42,895 nucleotides of DNA from Coriobacteriia bacterium. GTDB taxonomy: Bacteria; Actinomycetota; Coriobacteriia; Anaerosomatales; Kmv31. Location: positions 1 through 42,895 of the forward strand of contig JACUUM010000014.1 of the NCBI GenBank assembly GCA_014859305.1, in the 5' to 3' direction. Numbering within the stretch: position 1 is the stretch's first letter; the number at the start of each line of letters is the position of its first letter. A model generated the notes under the pieces. The model was not told the DNA's origin. It saw nothing but the letters and a program-made list of their open reading frames with translations, and ran no database searches. Below are positions 25,097 to 36,150 of this stretch, piece by piece. Both the position numbers and the translations under genes were made by a program.

Positions 25097-27526
<2,430 letters not shown>

Positions 27527-27604
27527 TCCGTCCCATCCTTTCGGTTCGGCATCCAGGCGGCGCGCCGACGAACCCGACCGGGCTGGCGCGTGAGATAATC
27601 TTGC

Positions 27605-27627
27605 CCGATACTTCGCCATTGTATCGG
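27605..27627. promoter_or_regulatory. Inverted-repeat operator overlapping the lon promoter
   Basis: CCGATAC (27605-27611), a nine-base spacer and GTATCGG (27621-27627) form a perfect 7-bp inverted repeat in the lon upstream region. It overlaps TACAAT on the minus strand (27618-27623), a good -10 box about 92 bases before lon. No convincing -35 box is seen. The spacing resembles that of CIRCE-type operators but the sequence does not. The same repeat is not found before dnaK or hsp20, so the regulator is unknown. Confidence 0.5.
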
Positions 27628-27681
27628 ACGGGCCCTTTGTCCGAAGGGCCGTCGATGACGGACGTCACAGAGGTGCCCTCT

Positions 27682-29715
27682 ATGCCATCCTCGCCGCTCA
27701 GCGGCCCTGTTCGCCAACGGAAGACCTCGGCCGCGGGGCTGGTCGGCGTACTCGCCGCGGCACTGTGCGCGGCGTGGCTCGTCCCGTCCGCGGCCGCGCC
27801 TGCCGCCGCCCAGCGCGATCCGGGCCCGGCGGCTGCCCCGGCAGAGGCCGAGGCGGCGGGGACCGTCCTGGAGCAGAGCGCCCAGTCCCTGCCGGCCGAC
27901 GGCACGCTCGTCCTGTCGGTGAGGAGCAGGATCGAGACGCAGACGCCCTACTACGAGGCACGGTTCCAGGTGCTGCGCCCCGGCGGCGGCTTGATGCTGC
28001 AGAAGACCGAGGTCCGCAACGACCTCCAGCCCGGCGAGTCCGTCGTGCGATTCGAGCGCGAACTCGCCTCCTTGGGGCTGCGGCCGGCCGAGTACCCGGT
28101 CCGCGTGCGAGTGCGCTTCGGGGACTCCTCGGGCAGGACGACCCAACACGTGCTGGAGGATCGGGTCTTCGTGTACGACCCGGAGCGCCGGCCCCTGCCC
28201 GTCGCCGTCGTCGTCCGCCTCGCGGGGGCTCCCGCGCTCGACCCCGAAGGGCGCTTCGTCTCCGATCCGGCGCTCTACACTCGCGAGCGCGACGAGGCTC
28301 TCGACCTCGTGCGCGAAGCCCGCGGGACGGGGGCGCGCTTCAGCCTCGCCGTCCCGCCGCTCCTGCTGAACCAGTGGCGCAGGGCCGCCGACGGGTACCG
28401 CACCGTCGGCCCGGAGGGGGTCCGCGACGTCGCAGCCGGCGAGCCGGTGCCGCTCTCGTACGCGCAAGCCCTCGCGGCGCTGGCCGACCTCGCCTCCCTC
28501 GATCGCGTGGAGCTGCTCGACGTGCCCTACGCCGAGCCCGACCTCGCGGGCCTGGAGGCCGCCGGCGCGCAGAGCGACCTTCAACGGCACTTCGCCAGAG
28601 GGTCCTCGGAGTACCTCGCCTCGCTGGAGCAGACGCCATCGGCCGGCGTGGCCGTGCTCGGCGACCGGTTCACGCCCTGGTCGCTCCCCGCGCTCGCCGA
28701 GAGGGGCATCGCGTACGCGGTGGTCTCCCCCGGTTCGCTCGAGGACGGCGATCCCGACCGGCAGGGCGGAACGCGGGCGGTGAAGGATACCACGACCACC
28801 GCGCTGGTCCTCGACGAGGAGGCGAGCGGGTTCCTCGGGGAGGACCCGCGCGAGGCGCTCGGCGGGCTGTTCGAGCGCTACCTCGCCGAGGAGGGTCCGG
28901 GGTGCGTGATCGCCCTTCTCGAGATCGGCCCCGGCCGGGCGGTGACCGCGCGGGACGCCGTGGGGGCGCTGCGGACCCTGGCCGCGGCGGGATGGCTCGA
29001 GACCGTCACCGCTGCGGAGGCGGCGGCGCAGGTCGGGGGGCCGCCGGTGCGCCTCGCCGAGGCGCGCGAAGGGCACGACGGGCCCGCGGACTACTGGCCG
29101 GAGGTGGCCGAGGCGCGCCGCTGCTCCTCGGCGCTCTCGGCTGCCGCGGGAGAGGACGACCAGGACGCGGAAGCCGCCTGGTACATGACCCTGCTGGCGC
29201 AGAGCGCGGCCTGGGCGGGGCCCGACGGCAGTTGGAGCATGGCGGACCGCGGCAGGGCGTTCGCCGGAGCGGCCGAGCGCAGGGCCCGGTCATTGCTGGA
29301 CTCGATCGGCCTGCAAGCCGAGGACGTGACGCTCTCGGGCCGCGCGGGGGACGTGCCCCTGAACGTCTCGAACCGCGCGCGCCGCCCCATGCGGGTCACG
29401 TTGCGCGTCCGCTCCCCGGAACTGGGCTTCCCGGAGGGGACCGAGCGCGTCGTCGAGCTTCAGCCGGCCGACAACTACCTCACGATGCCGGTGGAGATGC
29501 GATCTGCGCTCTCGGGGGCGCTACACGTCTCCGTCCATGCGGGCGACATGGTGATCGCCGAGAGCGACATCCGGGTGTACGCGTCGTATCTGGACCGCGT
29601 CGCGGTCGTCTCGGCGGTCGTGCTCGTACTGGTCGGGATGCTCGTATTCATAAAGAGGAGGGTCGATCGAGCCGATGCTGATATCATCGGAGACGGCAGG
29701 AAGCCGCAGCAGTAG
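27682..29715 (+). CDS. Exported DUF6049-like protein with C-terminal membrane anchor
   Basis: A protein of about 677 residues. An N-terminal signal segment has a basic RQRK start, the hydrophobic core GLVGVLAAALCAAWLV and AxA sites. A beta domain follows (about 60-165), then an alpha/beta domain (about 170-430) with VELLDVPYAEPDLAGLEAAG, which recalls the PYxDPD motif of actinobacterial DUF6049 proteins, a further beta domain (about 560-640) and a C-terminal transmembrane helix (VVSAVVLVLVGMLVFI) before a basic tail. It is thus membrane-anchored and mostly outside the cell. ATG at 27682 is chosen for AGAGGTG upstream; ATG at 27655 is an alternative. First gene of a plus-strand group. The molecular function is unknown; the family name is from memory of motif patterns. 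Confidence 0.7.
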   Translation: MPSSPLSGPVRQRKTSAAGLVGVLAAALCAAWLVPSAAAPAAAQRDPGPAAAPAEAEAAGTVLEQSAQSLPADGTLVLSVRSRIETQTPYYEARFQVLRPGGGLMLQKTEVRNDLQPGESVVRFERELASLGLRPAEYPVRVRVRFGDSSGRTTQHVLEDRVFVYDPERRPLPVAVVVRLAGAPALDPEGRFVSDPALYTRERDEALDLVREARGTGARFSLAVPPLLLNQWRRAADGYRTVGPEGVRDVAAGEPVPLSYAQALAALADLASLDRVELLDVPYAEPDLAGLEAAGAQSDLQRHFARGSSEYLASLEQTPSAGVAVLGDRFTPWSLPALAERGIAYAVVSPGSLEDGDPDRQGGTRAVKDTTTTALVLDEEASGFLGEDPREALGGLFERYLAEEGPGCVIALLEIGPGRAVTARDAVGALRTLAAAGWLETVTAAEAAAQVGGPPVRLAEAREGHDGPADYWPEVAEARRCSSALSAAAGEDDQDAEAAWYMTLLAQSAAWAGPDGSWSMADRGRAFAGAAERRARSLLDSIGLQAEDVTLSGRAGDVPLNVSNRARRPMRVTLRVRSPELGFPEGTERVVELQPADNYLTMPVEMRSALSGALHVSVHAGDMVIAESDIRVYASYLDRVAVVSAVVLVLVGMLVFIKRRVDRADADIIGDGRKPQQ

Positions 29716-29759: not shown

Positions 29760-30128
29760 ATGAAGAAGTTCCTCGTCGCCGCCCTGGTTTTGCTCATCGT
29801 CGCGACGCTCGTGAACGATGCAGGGCGCTATCTCAGGATGATGTTCCGACTCGATACCGCCACCCAGGAGATCGTGCGCATCGCGGCCGACGCGGCGCCT
29901 TCCGAGCGCGGCAAGAGCCAGCCGGGAGGGCGCGCGGCCGTCCGCGCCGCCCAGGAGCGGGGCCTCGTGGTGTACGGCTACCAGATCGAAGGCAACGAGG
30001 TCCAGGTGTGGACGCAGGCCATGGTCGACGGCACGTGGATCTATGGCCCGTTCCTTGCATGGCAGGCGGGAAAACCGCTGGATACGCCGCTCGAGATCAC
30101 CGACCACAAGGTAGCGTTCGTGCGCTGA
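29760..30128 (+). CDS. Small membrane-anchored protein of unknown function
   Basis: A 122-residue protein with an N-terminal hydrophobic helix (MKKFLVAALVLLIVATLV) that could be an uncleaved anchor or a signal peptide. A compact extracytoplasmic part of about 95 residues follows, including VVYGYQIEGNEVQVWTQAMV and ending with a beta strand. AGAGGTGG precedes the ATG. It lies 44 bases after the DUF6049-like gene and 49 before the PIN-TPR gene, so all three are probably co-transcribed. The short N-terminal helix followed by a small domain recalls pilin-like or TadE-like proteins, but no conserved processing site is seen. Family not recognised. Confidence 0.65.
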   Translation: MKKFLVAALVLLIVATLVNDAGRYLRMMFRLDTATQEIVRIAADAAPSERGKSQPGGRAAVRAAQERGLVVYGYQIEGNEVQVWTQAMVDGTWIYGPFLAWQAGKPLDTPLEITDHKVAFVR

Positions 30129-30177: not shown

Positions 30178-31284
30178 ATGCGCACCGTAGTGTTCGACAC
30201 CAACGTACTGCTCGCCGACCCGAACGCGCTCTTCGCGTTCCCCGACGCGGACGTGGTCATCCCCGAGACGGTCCTCGCCGAGCTCGACAAACTGAAGACC
30301 TCCCGCGTAGACCCCGAGCTGCGGTTCAGGGGGCGCGAGGTCAGCCGCCTGCTGTTCGAGCTCTCCGAAGACGGGAACCTGGTCGACGGCGTGGCCCTCC
30401 CCGACGGCGGACGCCTGCGCGTCGTCCCGCTCGACGGCGACGTCGAGTTGCACGAAGGACTCTCCGCGCGCAGCGCGGACGACCGGATCCTCGCAGTCGC
30501 GCTGCACCTGAGCGGGCCGGACCGCGAGAACGCCGTGCTGGTCACGAACGACTTGAACATGCTGCTCAAGGCTCAGACGTTCGGCGTGAAGGTGGAGCGC
30601 CACGCCGACGGAGCGGACAAGTCCTTCTCCAAGAGGTTCATAGTGCGCCCCTTCCAGCGGTACAAGGTGCCGATCGGGATCCTCGCCGCGGCGCTGGCTC
30701 TGTTCGCCGCCATCGTGTTCCTGACGATCTACGGACCAGGGTCCCAGCAGGTGAGCACGGTGCCGGCCGAGCTGCGCTCGATACTCACCGACCAGCAGGA
30801 GAAGGCGCTCGACGCGATGCTCTCGCTCGAGCGGAACCCCTCGGACGTCCAGCCGAGGCTCGTGCTCGCCGACTTCTACTTCGACTTGCGCGACCAGACG
30901 GGCAACCTGCAGTTCGGACAGTCGGCGGCACGGCACTACACGGCGTATCTGGAAGTGCGGCCGACCGACATAAACGCACGGGCGGACTACGCCGCGACGC
31001 TCTTCTACCTCGGGCAGACGGACCATGCCATCCAGGAGGTCGGACGGGTGCTGGAGGTCGAGCCCGACCACGTGCGCGCGAACTTCAACCTGGGTATCTT
31101 CTATTGGCGAGGGCGTCAGGACCTGCCGGCGGCGGCATCGCAGTTCCGCAAGGTCGCCGAACTCACCGAAGGCGGCGACGCCCACGCCCAGCTCATCCAC
31201 AACGACGCGAGCGCGAAGCTCACGCAGATAGAGCAGGAGGCGAAGGCGTCGGGCACGCCGTTGCCGAAGGGGGGCACCTCCTAG
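30178..31284 (+). CDS. PIN domain - transmembrane - TPR fusion protein
   Basis: A 368-residue protein with an unusual order. Residues 1-140 are a PIN ribonuclease domain of the PhoH-associated type: VFDTNVLLADPNALF (Asp7), PETVLAELDKLK (Glu35), SADDRILAVA (Asp101/Asp102) and VTNDLNML (Asp125) supply the acidic metal-binding set. A transmembrane helix follows at about 164-184, and TPR-like helical repeats from about 200 to 350 contain LVLADFYFDLRDQTG and ANFNLGIFYWRG. The PhoH ATPase normally fused to this PIN type is absent. The N terminus should face the cytoplasm, placing the TPRs outside the membrane (inference). The stop lies two bases before the trxB start. The likely activity is a membrane-tethered RNase; its target is unknown. 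Confidence 0.8.
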   Translation: MRTVVFDTNVLLADPNALFAFPDADVVIPETVLAELDKLKTSRVDPELRFRGREVSRLLFELSEDGNLVDGVALPDGGRLRVVPLDGDVELHEGLSARSADDRILAVALHLSGPDRENAVLVTNDLNMLLKAQTFGVKVERHADGADKSFSKRFIVRPFQRYKVPIGILAAALALFAAIVFLTIYGPGSQQVSTVPAELRSILTDQQEKALDAMLSLERNPSDVQPRLVLADFYFDLRDQTGNLQFGQSAARHYTAYLEVRPTDINARADYAATLFYLGQTDHAIQEVGRVLEVEPDHVRANFNLGIFYWRGRQDLPAAASQFRKVAELTEGGDAHAQLIHNDASAKLTQIEQEAKASGTPLPKGGTS

Positions 31285-31286
31285 CG

Positions 31287-32222
31287 ATGGACACCATCGA
31301 CGTCGCCATCGTCGGCGGCGGGCCCGCGGGCCTTGCCGCCGCGCTGTATGCGGCCCGCTCCCGCGCCCGCACGGTGGTGTTCGAAGCCGCGATGCCCGGC
31401 GGGCAGATCGTGACCACGGACTGGGTGGAGAACTATCCGGGCTTCCCCGAGGGCGTGTCCGGCGCGAAGCTCGCCGAGCTGATGCTCGCGCAGGCCGAGG
31501 AATTCGGCGCCGAGGTCCGCTCCTTCACACCCGTCGAGTCGATACGGCCCTCCGACCTGGACTTCATCGTGTCGGCCGACGGCGAGGAGTACCTGGCGCG
31601 AGCGGTGATCCTCGCCACGGGGGCCGTGCCCAAGAAGCTCGGCGTCCCGGGCGAGGCCGAGTACACCGGACGAGGAGTCTCCTGGTGCGCGACGTGCGAC
31701 GGGGCGCTCTTCCGCGAGAAGGTCGTGGCGGTGGTGGGCGGCGGGGACGCCGCCGTGGAGGAGGCGATCTTCCTCACCAAGTTCGCGTCGCGCGTCCACC
31801 TCGTCCACCGGCGCGACGAGCTGCGGGCGACCAAGTGCATCCAGGAGCGCTGTCTCGCCAACGAGCGCGTCGAGATGCGGCTGAGCCGAGTGGTCACCGC
31901 CGTCGAGGGCGACGGGGGCAAGGTCACCGGCCTCCGACTCGCCTCCACCAAGGGCGAGCCCGAGGAACTCCTGCCGCTGGACGGGGTCTTCATCTTCGTC
32001 GGGGTGGACCCGGTCATCGGCCTCGTGGCCGAGCTGGTCGACCTCGCGGAGAACGGTTTCGTCAAGGCGGACCACGACGGACGCACGACCTGGCCGGGTA
32101 TCTACGCCGCCGGGGACGTGACAGACTCCGAACTCAAGCAGGTGGTGACCGCGGCCGCCAAAGGTGCATCCGCGGCGTTCGAAGCGGTACGCTTCATCGA
32201 CAGCAAGCTCTGCAGCATCTGA
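31287..32222 (+). CDS. trxB: Thioredoxin reductase
   Basis: FAD enzyme that reduces thioredoxin with NADPH, 311 residues. The FAD motif GGGPAGLAAA starts at 10, the redox-active CATC is at 134-137, the second dinucleotide motif VVGGGDAAVEEA (149-160) is followed by HRRDELRA (174-181), whose HRRxxxR pattern indicates NADPH, and the C-terminal FAD motif is IYAAGDVTD. Length is normal for the low-molecular-weight bacterial enzyme. It starts two bases after the PIN-TPR gene and is followed by thioredoxin after 38 bases, giving a complete thioredoxin system. Confidence 0.95.
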   Translation: MDTIDVAIVGGGPAGLAAALYAARSRARTVVFEAAMPGGQIVTTDWVENYPGFPEGVSGAKLAELMLAQAEEFGAEVRSFTPVESIRPSDLDFIVSADGEEYLARAVILATGAVPKKLGVPGEAEYTGRGVSWCATCDGALFREKVVAVVGGGDAAVEEAIFLTKFASRVHLVHRRDELRATKCIQERCLANERVEMRLSRVVTAVEGDGGKVTGLRLASTKGEPEELLPLDGVFIFVGVDPVIGLVAELVDLAENGFVKADHDGRTTWPGIYAAGDVTDSELKQVVTAAAKGASAAFEAVRFIDSKLCSI

Positions 32223-32260: not shown

Positions 32261-32590
32261 ATGGGCGAGAACATGATGCACGTGACCGACGGGGACTTCG
32301 ACAAGACGGTCCTTGCAAGCGACAAGCCCGTCGTGCTCGACTTCTGGGCGCCATGGTGCGGACCCTGCCGCATGATGGAGCCCGTGCTGCAGGAGCTGGC
32401 GTCCGAGCACGGCGACACGCTGCACGTCGGCAAGCTGAACGTGGACGAGAACCCTGAGACGGCCACCAAGTTCGACATCCTGTCGATCCCGACGCTGCTG
32501 GTGTTCGACAACGGCGAGGTCGTGAAGAAGCTCGTCGGCGCGATGCCGAAGAAGCGGCTGCTCGAGGAACTGGCCCCCTGGGTCGGGTAG
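32261..32590 (+). CDS. trxA: Thioredoxin
   Basis: Disulfide reductase of 109 residues with the classic active site WCGPC (Cys33, Cys36) inside VVLDFWAPWCGPC and the cis-proline segment SIPTLLVF. It receives electrons from the TrxB just upstream. ATG at 32261 lies in a purine-rich context (GGGGAGGAG). Cytoplasmic; no signal peptide. A short GC hairpin follows the stop. Confidence 0.96.
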   Translation: MGENMMHVTDGDFDKTVLASDKPVVLDFWAPWCGPCRMMEPVLQELASEHGDTLHVGKLNVDENPETATKFDILSIPTLLVFDNGEVVKKLVGAMPKKRLLEELAPWVG

Positions 32591-33113: not shown

Positions 33114-33533
33114 ATGAGCCGGCTCGTTCGCTTCGGTGTGGCGATGGACGAGGACCTGCTGCGGCGCTTCGACGAGCTCGTCGCCAGGCGGGGGTTCGCC
33201 TCCAACCGCTCGGAGGCGGTACGGGACCTCGTGCGCCACGCGCTGGTCGACGCGGAGTGGGAGGAGTCGGCGGAGGAGTGCGTCGGGACGCTGACCATGG
33301 TCTTCGACCACGGCCACTCCGACCTGTCCGACAAGCTCGACGCGGTGCAGCACGCCCATCACGACAAGGTCGTCTCGGCGATGCACGTGCATCTCGACTC
33401 ACACGCCTGCCTCGAGGTGCTCGCGCTGCGCGGCTCCAGTGCGGACATCCGCGCGATAGCCGACGTGCTCCTGGGCACGAAGGGCGTCAAGCACGGCAAG
33501 CTCGTGACCACGACGACCGGCGCCCACCTGTGA
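33114..33533 (+). CDS. nikR: NikR, nickel-responsive ribbon-helix-helix regulator
   Basis: Ni(II)-dependent repressor, 139 residues. The N-terminal ribbon-helix-helix (1-48) has [17 protein letters not shown] and [11 protein letters not shown]; the C-terminal ACT-like domain has the four nickel ligands His80, His91, His93 and Cys99 ([20 protein letters not shown]), spaced exactly as His76, His87, His89 and Cys95 in E. coli NikR. It heads the nickel-uptake operon (27-base gap to nikMN), so autoregulation is likely. A GTGTTAC half-site lies at 33089-33095, but no matching GTAACAC was found at the expected distance. Confidence 0.95.
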
Positions 33534-33560
33534 CGGCGAGCCGGGGAGGGGACAGCGGAC

Positions 33561-34499
33561 ATGCACATCCCTGACGGGGTGCTCGAGACCAAGACGTGGT
33601 TGGCCTCGTGGGCCGGGTCCGCGGGCATGCTGGCGTACGCCGCGCGACACGTGCGGCGGGGCGTGGAGGACGGCCGGCTCGTCCTGATGTCCGTGCTGGC
33701 CGCGCTCCTGTTCGCCCTGCAGATGCTCAACTTCCCCGTGGCGGGGGGGACCTCCGGCCACTTCGCCGGCGGCGCTGTCGCCGCGATCGTCCTCGGGCCT
33801 TGGCCGGCGGTCCTCGTGATGAGCACCGTGCTCGTCATCCAGGCGTTCGTGTTCGCCGACGGGGGCGTGGCCGCGCTCGGCGCGAACATCTGGAACCTGG
33901 GGGTGGTGGCTCCCTTCGTCGGCTGGTGGGTGTTCGCCGCTTTCGCGCGCCTCGGACGGGGGCGCGCCTCCCGCGTCACCGGGGCGTTCGTGGCGGCGTG
34001 GCTTGCCACCGTGGCCGCCGCTCTGGCCGCCGGCATCGAGATCTGGGCGTCCGGGCGGGCTCCGTTCGCGCTCGTGATGGGATCGATGGGCTTCTGGCAT
34101 GCGCTCATCGGCATAGGCGAGGGCGCCGTCACGGCCGGCCTCGTCGGCTACCTGCTCGCGGTGCGGCCGGACCTGCTCGCCGCCGAGGCGGCTTCGTCCG
34201 AGCCCGTATCGCGCCGCGCGCTGGCAGGCTTCGCGGCAGCCGCCCTCGCCGCGGCCGGCGTGTCCTTCCTCGCCTCGTCGCGCCCCGACGGACTGGAGCA
34301 CGTGGCCGAGCGGATCGGGTTCCTGCCCCCGAAGGGCGTTCCCACGTCGTTCGCGGGCAGCCCCATCCCCGACTACGTCGTCCCGGGAGTCGCCAACGAG
34401 ACGCTCGCCGGCATCCTGGCCGGCGTCGTCGGACTCGTCGTCGCCGGCCTTGTCGGCCACGCGCTCGTCAAGGCCGCGCGCTTGCGGCGGGCGTCCTGA
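33561..34499 (+). CDS. Nickel ECF transporter substrate-binding fusion NikMN (CbiM + PDGLE)
   Basis: Membrane component that binds and passes Ni2+, 312 residues. The invariant N terminus MHIPDG supplies the free amine and His2 for metal chelation; NFPVAGGTSGHFAGG (57-71) with His67 is the second metal-loop motif. About seven helices belong to the CbiM/NikM part (1-205). The C-terminal part (about 215-312) is the NikN domain with its PDGLE motif at 242-246. The gene follows nikR and precedes the T and A components, so nickel is preferred over cobalt as substrate (inference from context; the protein family handles both). Confidence 0.92.
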   Translation: MHIPDGVLETKTWLASWAGSAGMLAYAARHVRRGVEDGRLVLMSVLAALLFALQMLNFPVAGGTSGHFAGGAVAAIVLGPWPAVLVMSTVLVIQAFVFADGGVAALGANIWNLGVVAPFVGWWVFAAFARLGRGRASRVTGAFVAAWLATVAAALAAGIEIWASGRAPFALVMGSMGFWHALIGIGEGAVTAGLVGYLLAVRPDLLAAEAASSEPVSRRALAGFAAAALAAAGVSFLASSRPDGLEHVAERIGFLPPKGVPTSFAGSPIPDYVVPGVANETLAGILAGVVGLVVAGLVGHALVKAARLRRAS

Positions 34500-34505
34500 G
34501 GCGAC

Positions 34506-35390
34506 ATGGGCCGCCGCCTCCACCGGCATCGCAGCGCAGGGGAGACCGCGCCCCCCGGCGTCCACTCCCATGCACACGTCCACGGAGACGAGCGGCACGA
34601 GCACCCGCACCATCACGTGCTCGACGCCGGGGAGGAACACGCGCACGGCCACGCGTTCGAGCGGTACACGCTCCTGTGCTCGCCGGTGCACGCGCTGGAC
34701 CCTCGCGCGAAGGTCCTGGCGGCCGTGACACTCTCGCTCGCGATCGTGCTCGCCCCGCCGCTCGACGCTCCGGCGCTGCTGGGAGTCGTGACGCTGCTGC
34801 TCGCGGTCGCCACGCTGGCACGGCTGCCGCTCGGCTGGCTCCTGCGCCGCTCGGCGCTCGTGATCCCGTTCGCCGGCACCATCGCGCTGTTCGCCCCGCT
34901 GGGCGGCGGCTCGCTCTCCGTGCGCGGCGCCGCGGAGGCGTACGCGAGCGGCGGATGGATCGAGGCGTACGCGGTCGTGACCAAGGCGTGGCTCACCACG
35001 CTGTCGATGCTGCTGGCCGCCTCGACGACCCCCACCCCGCTGCTGCTGAAGGGCCTGGAGGGCCTGCGCGTCCCGCGCGTGATGCTGCTGATGATGACGT
35101 TCACGTACCGCTACGTGACGACGCTGCGCGGCCAACTGTCCTCGGCCCGCGAGGCGCTGGAGAGCCGGGGGTTCGCGACGAGAGGCTGGCGCAAGGTGCG
35201 GCTGTACGGCAACCTCTCAGGGACCATGTTCATCCGCGGCTACGAGCGGGCCGAGCGGGTCTACGCGGCGATGCTGTCGCGGGGCTTCGACGGCAGCCTG
35301 CCCACCGCGCGACCGTTGCGCTTGCGGCCGGCCGACGCGGCCATGCTGGCGCTGGCGGCGCTGACGGCCGCCGCGCTGCTGCTCCGATGA
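34506..35390 (+). CDS. ECF transporter T component NikQ with His-rich N terminus
   Basis: Energy-coupling transmembrane subunit, 294 residues. Residues 60-290 are the CbiQ/EcfT fold with about five helices and the coupling-helix motifs ALESRGFATRG and AMLSRGFDGS, which contact the ATPase. The first 51 residues are unusual: 14 histidines in segments such as HSHAHVHGDERHEHPHHH and HAHGHAF, an apparent nickel-binding cytoplasmic tail. ATG at 34506 starts seven bases after nikMN; the next gene begins 14 bases after the stop. The ribosome site is weak (GAGG), as expected for a coupled internal gene. Confidence 0.9.
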   Translation: MGRRLHRHRSAGETAPPGVHSHAHVHGDERHEHPHHHVLDAGEEHAHGHAFERYTLLCSPVHALDPRAKVLAAVTLSLAIVLAPPLDAPALLGVVTLLLAVATLARLPLGWLLRRSALVIPFAGTIALFAPLGGGSLSVRGAAEAYASGGWIEAYAVVTKAWLTTLSMLLAASTTPTPLLLKGLEGLRVPRVMLLMMTFTYRYVTTLRGQLSSAREALESRGFATRGWRKVRLYGNLSGTMFIRGYERAERVYAAMLSRGFDGSLPTARPLRLRPADAAMLALAALTAAALLLR

Positions 35391-35403
35391 GGTGTCCACG
35401 CCG

Positions 35404-36150
35404 ATGAGGGAGCCCTACGCCGTCGAGTTGCGAGACCTCCGATACGCCTACCCGGACGGGACGGTGGCGCTCGACGGCGTCGACCTCGCCGTCGCCGCGG
35501 GAGAGCGCGTGGCACTCCTCGGGCCCAACGGGGCGGGGAAGTCCACGCTCATCCTGCACATCAACGGCGTCATACGGGGTGCCGGGGACGTCTTGGTCGG
35601 CGGGACGCGGCTCGCCGACGACACGGTGCGCGCCGTGCGCTCGCGCGTCGGCCTGGTCTTCCAGGACCCGGACGACCAGCTCTTCATGACCACGCTGTAC
35701 GACGACGTCGCCTTCGGCCCGCTCAACATGGCGCTGCCCGCGGCGGAGGTGGACTCCCGCGTGCACGACGCGCTGCATGCCGTCGGTCTGGCCGGGGAGA
35801 CCTCGCGGCCCGCGCACCACCTGAGCTTCGGGCAGCGGAAGCGCGCCGCCCTGGCCACGGTGCTGTCCATGCGTCCGGACGTGCTCGTGCTGGACGAGCC
35901 GACCTCCAACCTCGACCCGCGCTCCAGACGGGCCATGATCGACCTGCTCTCCTCGCTGCCGGCGACGCAGCTGGTGGCGACCCACGACATGGACCTCGCG
36001 TGGCGGCTCTGCGCGCGGGTCGTGCTGCTGGATGGCGGCGTCGTCGCCGCCGACGGCCCGTCGTCCGAGATCCTCGCCGACGAGCGGCTCATGGAGGCGC
36101 ACGGGCTCGAGCTCCCGCCCGCGCTGGCGCGCCACACCGAGCGAGGGTAG
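35404..36150 (+). CDS. Nickel ECF transporter ATPase NikO
   Basis: ATP-binding subunit, 248 residues. Walker A is GPNGAGKS (40-47), the Q-loop is VFQDPDDQLF (85-94), typical of the CbiO/EcfA group, the signature is LSFGQ (140-144), Walker B is VLVLDE (160-165) and the switch His is in ATHDMD. ATG at 35404 is preferred because GAGGTG lies about nine bases upstream; GTG at 35392 would add four residues. Only one A subunit is encoded, so it probably works as a homodimer, as in other dedicated nickel/cobalt ECF systems. Last gene of the nik set. Confidence 0.93.
   Translation: MREPYAVELRDLRYAYPDGTVALDGVDLAVAAGERVALLGPNGAGKSTLILHINGVIRGAGDVLVGGTRLADDTVRAVRSRVGLVFQDPDDQLFMTTLYDDVAFGPLNMALPAAEVDSRVHDALHAVGLAGETSRPAHHLSFGQRKRAALATVLSMRPDVLVLDEPTSNLDPRSRRAMIDLLSSLPATQLVATHDMDLAWRLCARVVLLDGGVVAADGPSSEILADERLMEAHGLELPPALARHTERG

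Follow-up and report, generated by a model that had tools for sequence, protein, structure and literature searches.

A protein of 368 aa, encoded in the window analyzed here (the whole stretch of 42,895 nucleotides from a Coriobacteriia bacterium, contig JACUUM010000014.1), combines a PIN domain of the PhoH2 type, a single membrane helix and a TPR superhelix in that order. The PIN-TM-TPR protein is near-universal in its order and thus no singleton curiosity, and it is encoded between envelope and thioredoxin genes, in a slot that most of the other sampled Actinomycetota loci fill with a kinase-like protein and an ECF sigma factor. We propose, as a serious possibility that falls a little short of probable, that this protein is an endoribonuclease crossing the membrane once, and that it links the cell envelope to RNA decay.

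Domain architecture and predicted topology

The first-pass annotation had read the N-terminus as a PIN domain of the type normally fused to the PhoH ATPase, with its acidic residues intact, and had seen the ATPase replaced by a transmembrane helix and TPRs; both readings are borne out. Pfam PIN_4 matches at 90.5 bits against a cut-off of 21.9 (Table 1), and the NCBIfam PhoH2 model matches residues 2-142 (9.7e-20) at 71 bits against a full-length cut-off of 680. Because the PhoH2 model matches with its PIN part only, the description as a PhoH-type PIN without ATPase is correct: the PhoH ATPase domain is absent, with no PhoH match in Pfam and an NCBIfam PhoH2 match that ends at residue 142. The PIN domain is therefore filed as PhoH2-type, and the protein, having no ATPase, is not filed as PhoH2, nor is it filed as a toxin. 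TPR models match at approximately residues 248-330 (TPR_17, 1.5e-7, 31.5 bits against 24.4; TPR_19, 3.8e-6), both above their Pfam cut-offs, and the alpha-solenoid fold expected of the family is seen in the AF2 helices at 205-358 and in matches to TPR folds; the CcmH/CycH TPR model (PF23914) scores 14.5 bits, below its cut-off of 42. The protein has a single hydrophobic segment (19 residues from 166, mean KD 2.77). Its AF2 model, built on 34 relatives, has a mean pLDDT of 90.2 (mostly >95 in the TPR helices) and gives the PIN domain, the membrane helix and the TPRs as separate modules, while the pTM of 0.49 fits a relative placement of these modules that is not fixed by the model. Using Foldseek against the PDB, the top fold match of the PIN domain is the SMG6 PIN (2hwx), with 3ix7 and many TPR proteins also found, and a PhoH family protein was among the best matches to viral structure models, aligned over ~150 columns. 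By sequence, a 20-sequence PIN profile gave no PIN match in the PDB at a threshold of 0.01; single-sequence matches to a DNA glycosylase were attributed to chance.

Table 1. Coordinates of the PIN-TM-TPR gene, its parts and its neighbors in the window.
Feature	Position	Strand	Basis or remark
lon protease, divergent, adjoins block, conserved	25097..27619	-	
DUF6049-like membrane-anchored protein, predicted GH57-like fold, start codon inferred	27655..29715	+	Pfam, AF2, PDB fold match
Small membrane protein, 122 aa, one N-terminal TM	29760..30128	+	Homology to protein between MurJ and kinase elsewhere
PIN-TM-TPR gene, whole	30178..31284	+	368 aa; ATG start; single uninterrupted frame
PIN domain, PIN_4/PhoH2 type, residues 4-141	30187..30600	+	Pfam PIN_4 1.5e-25
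PIN acid codons	D7 30196-30198; E35 30280-30282; D101 30478-30480; D125 30550-30552	+	
Basic helix, PIN-to-membrane linker, residues 142-161	30601..30660	+	AF2 secondary structure; low confidence at 146-153
Transmembrane helix, residues 163-185, predicted N-in/C-out	30664..30732	+	AF2 helix; hydrophobicity; positive-inside charge
TPR superhelix, predicted extracytoplasmic, residues 205-358	30790..31251	+	TPR models; AF2 helices; Foldseek TPR structures
trxB, thioredoxin reductase	31287..32222	+	Begins 2 bp past PIN-TM-TPR stop
trxA, thioredoxin, start inferred	32261..32590	+	WCGPC motif in frame

In an alignment of 79 non-identical members, residues D7, T8, N9, E35, D37, K40, D45, R53, R57, D101, T123-L129, K131, A132 and Q133 are invariant. 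In other words, a TNDLNML-KAQ motif is invariant alongside the four canonical PIN acids D7/E35/D101/D125, and the same PIN positions are also invariant across 34 diverse members with identities as low as 32%. The mean column identity is 0.72 for the PIN domain versus 0.58 for the TPR part, within which A284 is invariant and N304/L305/G306 are near-invariant. The human SMG6 PIN, which is active, uses D1251/E1282/D1353/D1392 (PMC12923823), to which D7/E35/D101/D125 appear to correspond by motif. We consider an intact PIN nuclease site to be strongly predicted.

The annotation had left two orientations open, with the nuclease inside and the TPRs outside, or the reverse. In the window protein, the 20 residues before the hydrophobic segment contain 6 K/R, versus 1 after it; the members average 5.2 before the membrane helix and 1.4 after, and the excess lies on the N-terminal side in 79 of 79. 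By the charge rule, a cytoplasmic PIN domain and extracytoplasmic TPRs are therefore strongly predicted, which favors the first orientation over the reverse.

Distribution and origin of the fusion

Among 61 genomes of the same order, our own included, 57 encode PIN-TM-TPR as one frame; the remaining four comprise two with partial copies, one with a weak TPR-type match only and one with none. A frameshift or chimeric ORF is ruled out by this single frame, and PIN and TPR parts as separate genes, the other way in which the fusion could have proved spurious, were not seen at this locus in relatives; the stand-alone TM-TPR paralogues described below sit elsewhere. The genome itself has one PIN_4 gene (the PIN-TM-TPR gene), no second one, and one PhoH gene in a 296-aa frame. 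PIN-TM-TPR was found on 77 GTDB loci or contigs with titles in Coriobacteriia/Anaerosomatales, Candidatus Aquicultor, Candidatus Geothermocultor and other Actinomycetota; some MAG titles among these contigs ("Aeromicrobium" and "Slackia", for example) look like misnaming. A wider sample of 397 Actinomycetota genomes, for which families and frame sizes were tallied by eye, gave full-length matches in ~37 genomes from ~17 family codes, down to 32% identity, so the order of domains recurs in deep families of the phylum. Families f17-f19, sampled from the same class, gave TM-TPR matches only, or none at the threshold used. Most other actinobacterial matches were to PIN alone, mostly in frames of 440-620 aa (the size of PhoH2), and the PhoH genes of the window's order lie mostly in frames of ~300-420 aa. 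The first-pass annotation knew of no described protein with this order, and the searches that we made of the literature likewise found no paper on a PIN+TM+TPR protein; it is conserved and, as far as those searches go, seems undescribed.

With profile positions 160-369, membrane helix included, stand-alone TM-TPR proteins are matched at E-values reaching 1e-36, and the gene is therefore most simply regarded as the fusion of a PIN of the PhoH2 type with a CcmI-like membrane TPR protein. Two of these stand-alone paralogues lie beside or near tatA/tatC (L142, 3199-5802; L146, 3775-7543), one of which reaches 53.6 bits for the CcmH/CycH TPR model (PF23914; cut-off 42). Further neighbors are STAS at L142 and RseC at L146, and our own genome also has a stand-alone TM-TPR paralogue (L140, C57). 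A viral origin of the fusion was rejected, since 80 of 80 IMG/VR relatives match PIN only, in ORFs mostly of PhoH2 size (400-600 aa), and the TPR part was found in none of their ORFs. In a tree of the fused TPR halves, a single clade needs 3 changes at an AU p of 0.11, so that neither one nor several fusion events are established.

A slot between envelope and thioredoxin genes

The gene order in the window is lon (on the minus strand), DUF6049-like, small TM protein, PIN-TM-TPR, trxB and trxA. The position directly before trxB-trxA was thus read correctly, with trxB starting 2 bp past the stop and trxA next, while the two upstream genes, annotated as encoding exported proteins, are both present but encode products that are predicted to stay anchored in the membrane and not to be freely exported. 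At the 65 loci where the PIN gene is complete and the DNA beyond it long enough, the gene directly downstream is TrxB at 58 and TrxA at 7, with a median PIN-TrxB gap of 2 bp. A DUF6049-like gene lies upstream at 51 of the 61 PIN loci having enough upstream DNA, and was not detected upstream of the PIN gene in some deep lineages; at L094 and L109, MurJ lies between the DUF6049-like and PIN genes (Pfam 3.8e-93 for MurJ at L094). A scan for promoters and terminators gave nothing exceeding shuffled controls. In two deep lineages, the PIN gene is separated from that of the small TM protein by one for a small protein that, judged by eye, resembles metal-sensing repressors of the CsoR type (L106:4365-4640; L108:5626-5892). 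At positions 33114-36150 of the window, transporter genes named by eye as cbiM, cbiQ and cbiO-type come after a NikR regulator, and this NikR-cbi block is also found downstream of trxBA in many relatives.

The DUF6049-like protein matches DUF6049 at 2.3e-6 and 27 bits, below the 30.1-bit cut-off, and its AF2 model (pLDDT 86.5) has hydrophobic helices at the N- and C-termini. The predicted fold is that of a GH57 glycosidase (PDB 7e1y, amylopullulanase, E 4e-26, TM-score 0.66 on target), a prediction that may also supply a fold for the mycobacterial Rv3909 family. Its candidate acids E286 and D387 are retained in most, not all, relatives, so that the modeled protein may be a degenerate glycan-binding form. 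The small TM protein has no Pfam match above cut-off, and contains an NDxG-like motif in its membrane segment and an A-rich stretch. It was not detected at many PIN loci, and is present also at loci without a PIN gene; it is homologous to a protein encoded between MurJ and the kinase at other Actinomycetota loci (hmmsearch 8.6e-20 to 8.8e-11, in a database of three; hhalign 2.2e-15).

For comparison, we used 12 DUF6049 loci from elsewhere in Actinomycetota, a small, hand-picked sample of stronger DUF6049 matches. Ten of these carry a sigma factor together with a kinase or kinase-like match; nine of the ten also carry MurJ and TrxB, neither of which lies in the stretch of the tenth, and four of the ten have an anti-sigma match, for which one query was used. 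On representative loci, Pfam named the kinase, the ECF sigma factor and a zinc-finger anti-sigma factor. The other two loci are L181, which carries the PIN protein, and one that ends at a contig edge. Conversely, no PIN locus has a sigma/kinase module in the PIN slot, and L071 alone has a sigma match, beyond trx; this mutual exclusion is a result of the sample, because the sigma-type loci were picked from better DUF6049 matches. Judged from these sequence matches, the PIN locus (DUF6049-like, sometimes MurJ, small TM protein, a variable slot, TrxB/TrxA) is homologous to the actinobacterial murJ-sigM-trx region, a correspondence that is new here, and the variable slot is occupied by PIN-TM-TPR. 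The neighborhood is one common to mycobacteria (Rv3909, MviN, SigM, TrxB2), and we take the corresponding region of M. tuberculosis to be Rv3909-Rv3910(MviN)-sigM-rsmA-trxB2-trxC. Rv3909 adjoins mviN, and both are listed as candidate envelope partners of MmpL3 (PMC6656915). While a homologous slot is no proof of the same function, this homology strengthens the proposed envelope-linked role, in RNA decay or stress sensing, at which the first-pass annotation had hinted.

Proposed function, alternatives and known systems

In the mechanism that we propose, the PIN domain would sit on the cytoplasmic face, kept near the membrane by the basic helix, and would cleave single-stranded RNA by means of the metal site of four acids that active PIN domains share. 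The outside TPR superhelix would bind a partner or an exported peptide, the partner most likely being encoded nearby, as either the DUF6049-like protein of predicted GH57 fold or the small membrane protein of this locus. Binding or release of this partner would cluster the protein, and PIN-PIN association would turn the nuclease on or off, with altered decay of chosen mRNAs as the outcome. PIN-TM-TPR would stand in for the set found elsewhere in Actinomycetota, in which a kinase-like protein and an ECF sigma factor are usually joined by an anti-sigma factor; considering that relatives keep a sigma-factor switch in this position, envelope conditions may control RNA decay directly. To our knowledge, no direct precedent exists in bacteria for signalling by a single-pass nuclease. 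Clustering is plausible as a switch, since in SMG5-SMG6 the active site becomes complete when the PIN domains associate (PMC12923823). In M. smegmatis, sigF mRNA is a target of PhoH2 (PMC7390352), whose PIN is of this type and which is the nearest functional precedent for it. The RNase activity and its RNA substrates, the outside partner, the clustering and the direction of regulation are what we infer in this mechanism.

In its fullest form, the proposal would make PIN-TM-TPR a bacterial one-protein transmembrane receptor with RNA cleavage as output, one that combines PIN and TPR modules on an IRE1-like plan and replaces the ECF sigma/anti-sigma/kinase module in an envelope-redox locus of deep-branching Actinomycetota, which we regard as possible but doubtful. 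Envelope-stress signals in bacteria are known to be relayed by sigma factors, two-component systems and kinases, and direct RNA cleavage by a receptor would, if true, be a different kind of output. The conserved locus is a natural experiment, with a sigma module in one lineage and a membrane nuclease in another in the same slot, and the receptor reading offers a testable role for DUF6049 and for the trxB-trxA linkage.

The lower conservation of the TPR part relative to PIN means that it may be a tether only. Bacteria are known to place RNA decay enzymes at the membrane, and the protein could be a constitutive membrane-tethered RNase on an RNase Y- or RNase E-like plan, in which the TM and TPRs place or scaffold the nuclease and no signal crosses the bilayer; near-universal presence in the order suggests such housekeeping. 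However, the elaborate outside superhelix, with its invariant and near-invariant positions, exceeds the needs of a tether, and elsewhere the slot belongs to a signalling module, and we consider this reading rather unlikely. An export- or translocon-associated quality-control nuclease, whose CcmI/YfgM-like TM-TPR half would bind proteins on the outside as they emerge or after export, while PIN would cut the mRNAs of inserted or exported proteins, would fit the match of the TPR half to the stand-alone paralogues, the one paralogue that passes the CcmH/CycH TPR cut-off, the two near tatA/tatC and the coupling to thioredoxin genes. Yet the PIN protein is encoded at a murJ/trx-type locus and not with tat or sec genes, its own CcmH/CycH score stays below cut-off, and TrxA and TrxB here are probably of the cytoplasmic type, all of which makes this improbable.

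PIN folds can be inactive, and the domain might instead be an RNA- or DNA-binding or structural module; with four acids and an extended motif invariant in 79 members, down to ~32% overall identity, we hold this to be very unlikely. VapC toxins are PIN proteins, which raises the idea of a toxin-antitoxin pair at the membrane, the antitoxin being the small upstream protein. While PhoH2 has also been termed a toxin-antitoxin (PMC7390352), the locus is core and vertically conserved, no neighbor is an antitoxin-type DNA-binding protein (they are the DUF6049-like protein, the TM protein and TrxB), and the small protein is a membrane protein with the patchy distribution described above, leaving this the most far-fetched of the readings. 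PADLOC gave no match, which counts against the toxin-antitoxin reading as well and led us to reject a defense system.

PIN-TM-TPR has points of likeness with several known systems. The SigM/anti-sigma and kinase-like module of the DUF6049-murJ-trxB-trxA locus has the same slot between envelope and thioredoxin genes, but its output is transcriptional, through a sigma factor, and takes several genes, whereas a single gene with predicted RNA cleavage stands here. PhoH2 has the same PIN type, with an ATPase/helicase where PIN-TM-TPR has a membrane helix and outside TPRs. CcmI/CycH and YfgM-type membrane TPR proteins likewise have an N-in helix followed by extracytoplasmic TPRs, but, unlike PIN-TM-TPR, no nuclease domain. 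Human SMG6 also combines TPR-like and PIN parts, is activated by PIN-PIN pairing and has four acids that seem to correspond by motif; it is soluble, with its PIN at the C-terminus and no membrane helix, and was not matched by sequence in the PDB profile search, so the combination is presumably convergent. Finally, the ER stress receptor RNase IRE1 has a sensor outside the cytoplasm, one membrane helix and a cytoplasmic RNase, the nearest plan to the one proposed for PIN-TM-TPR, whose N-in topology is predicted by the charge rule in 79/79 members. This likeness is an analogy and not homology: the folds differ, PIN-TM-TPR has no kinase, and its sensing is a proposal.
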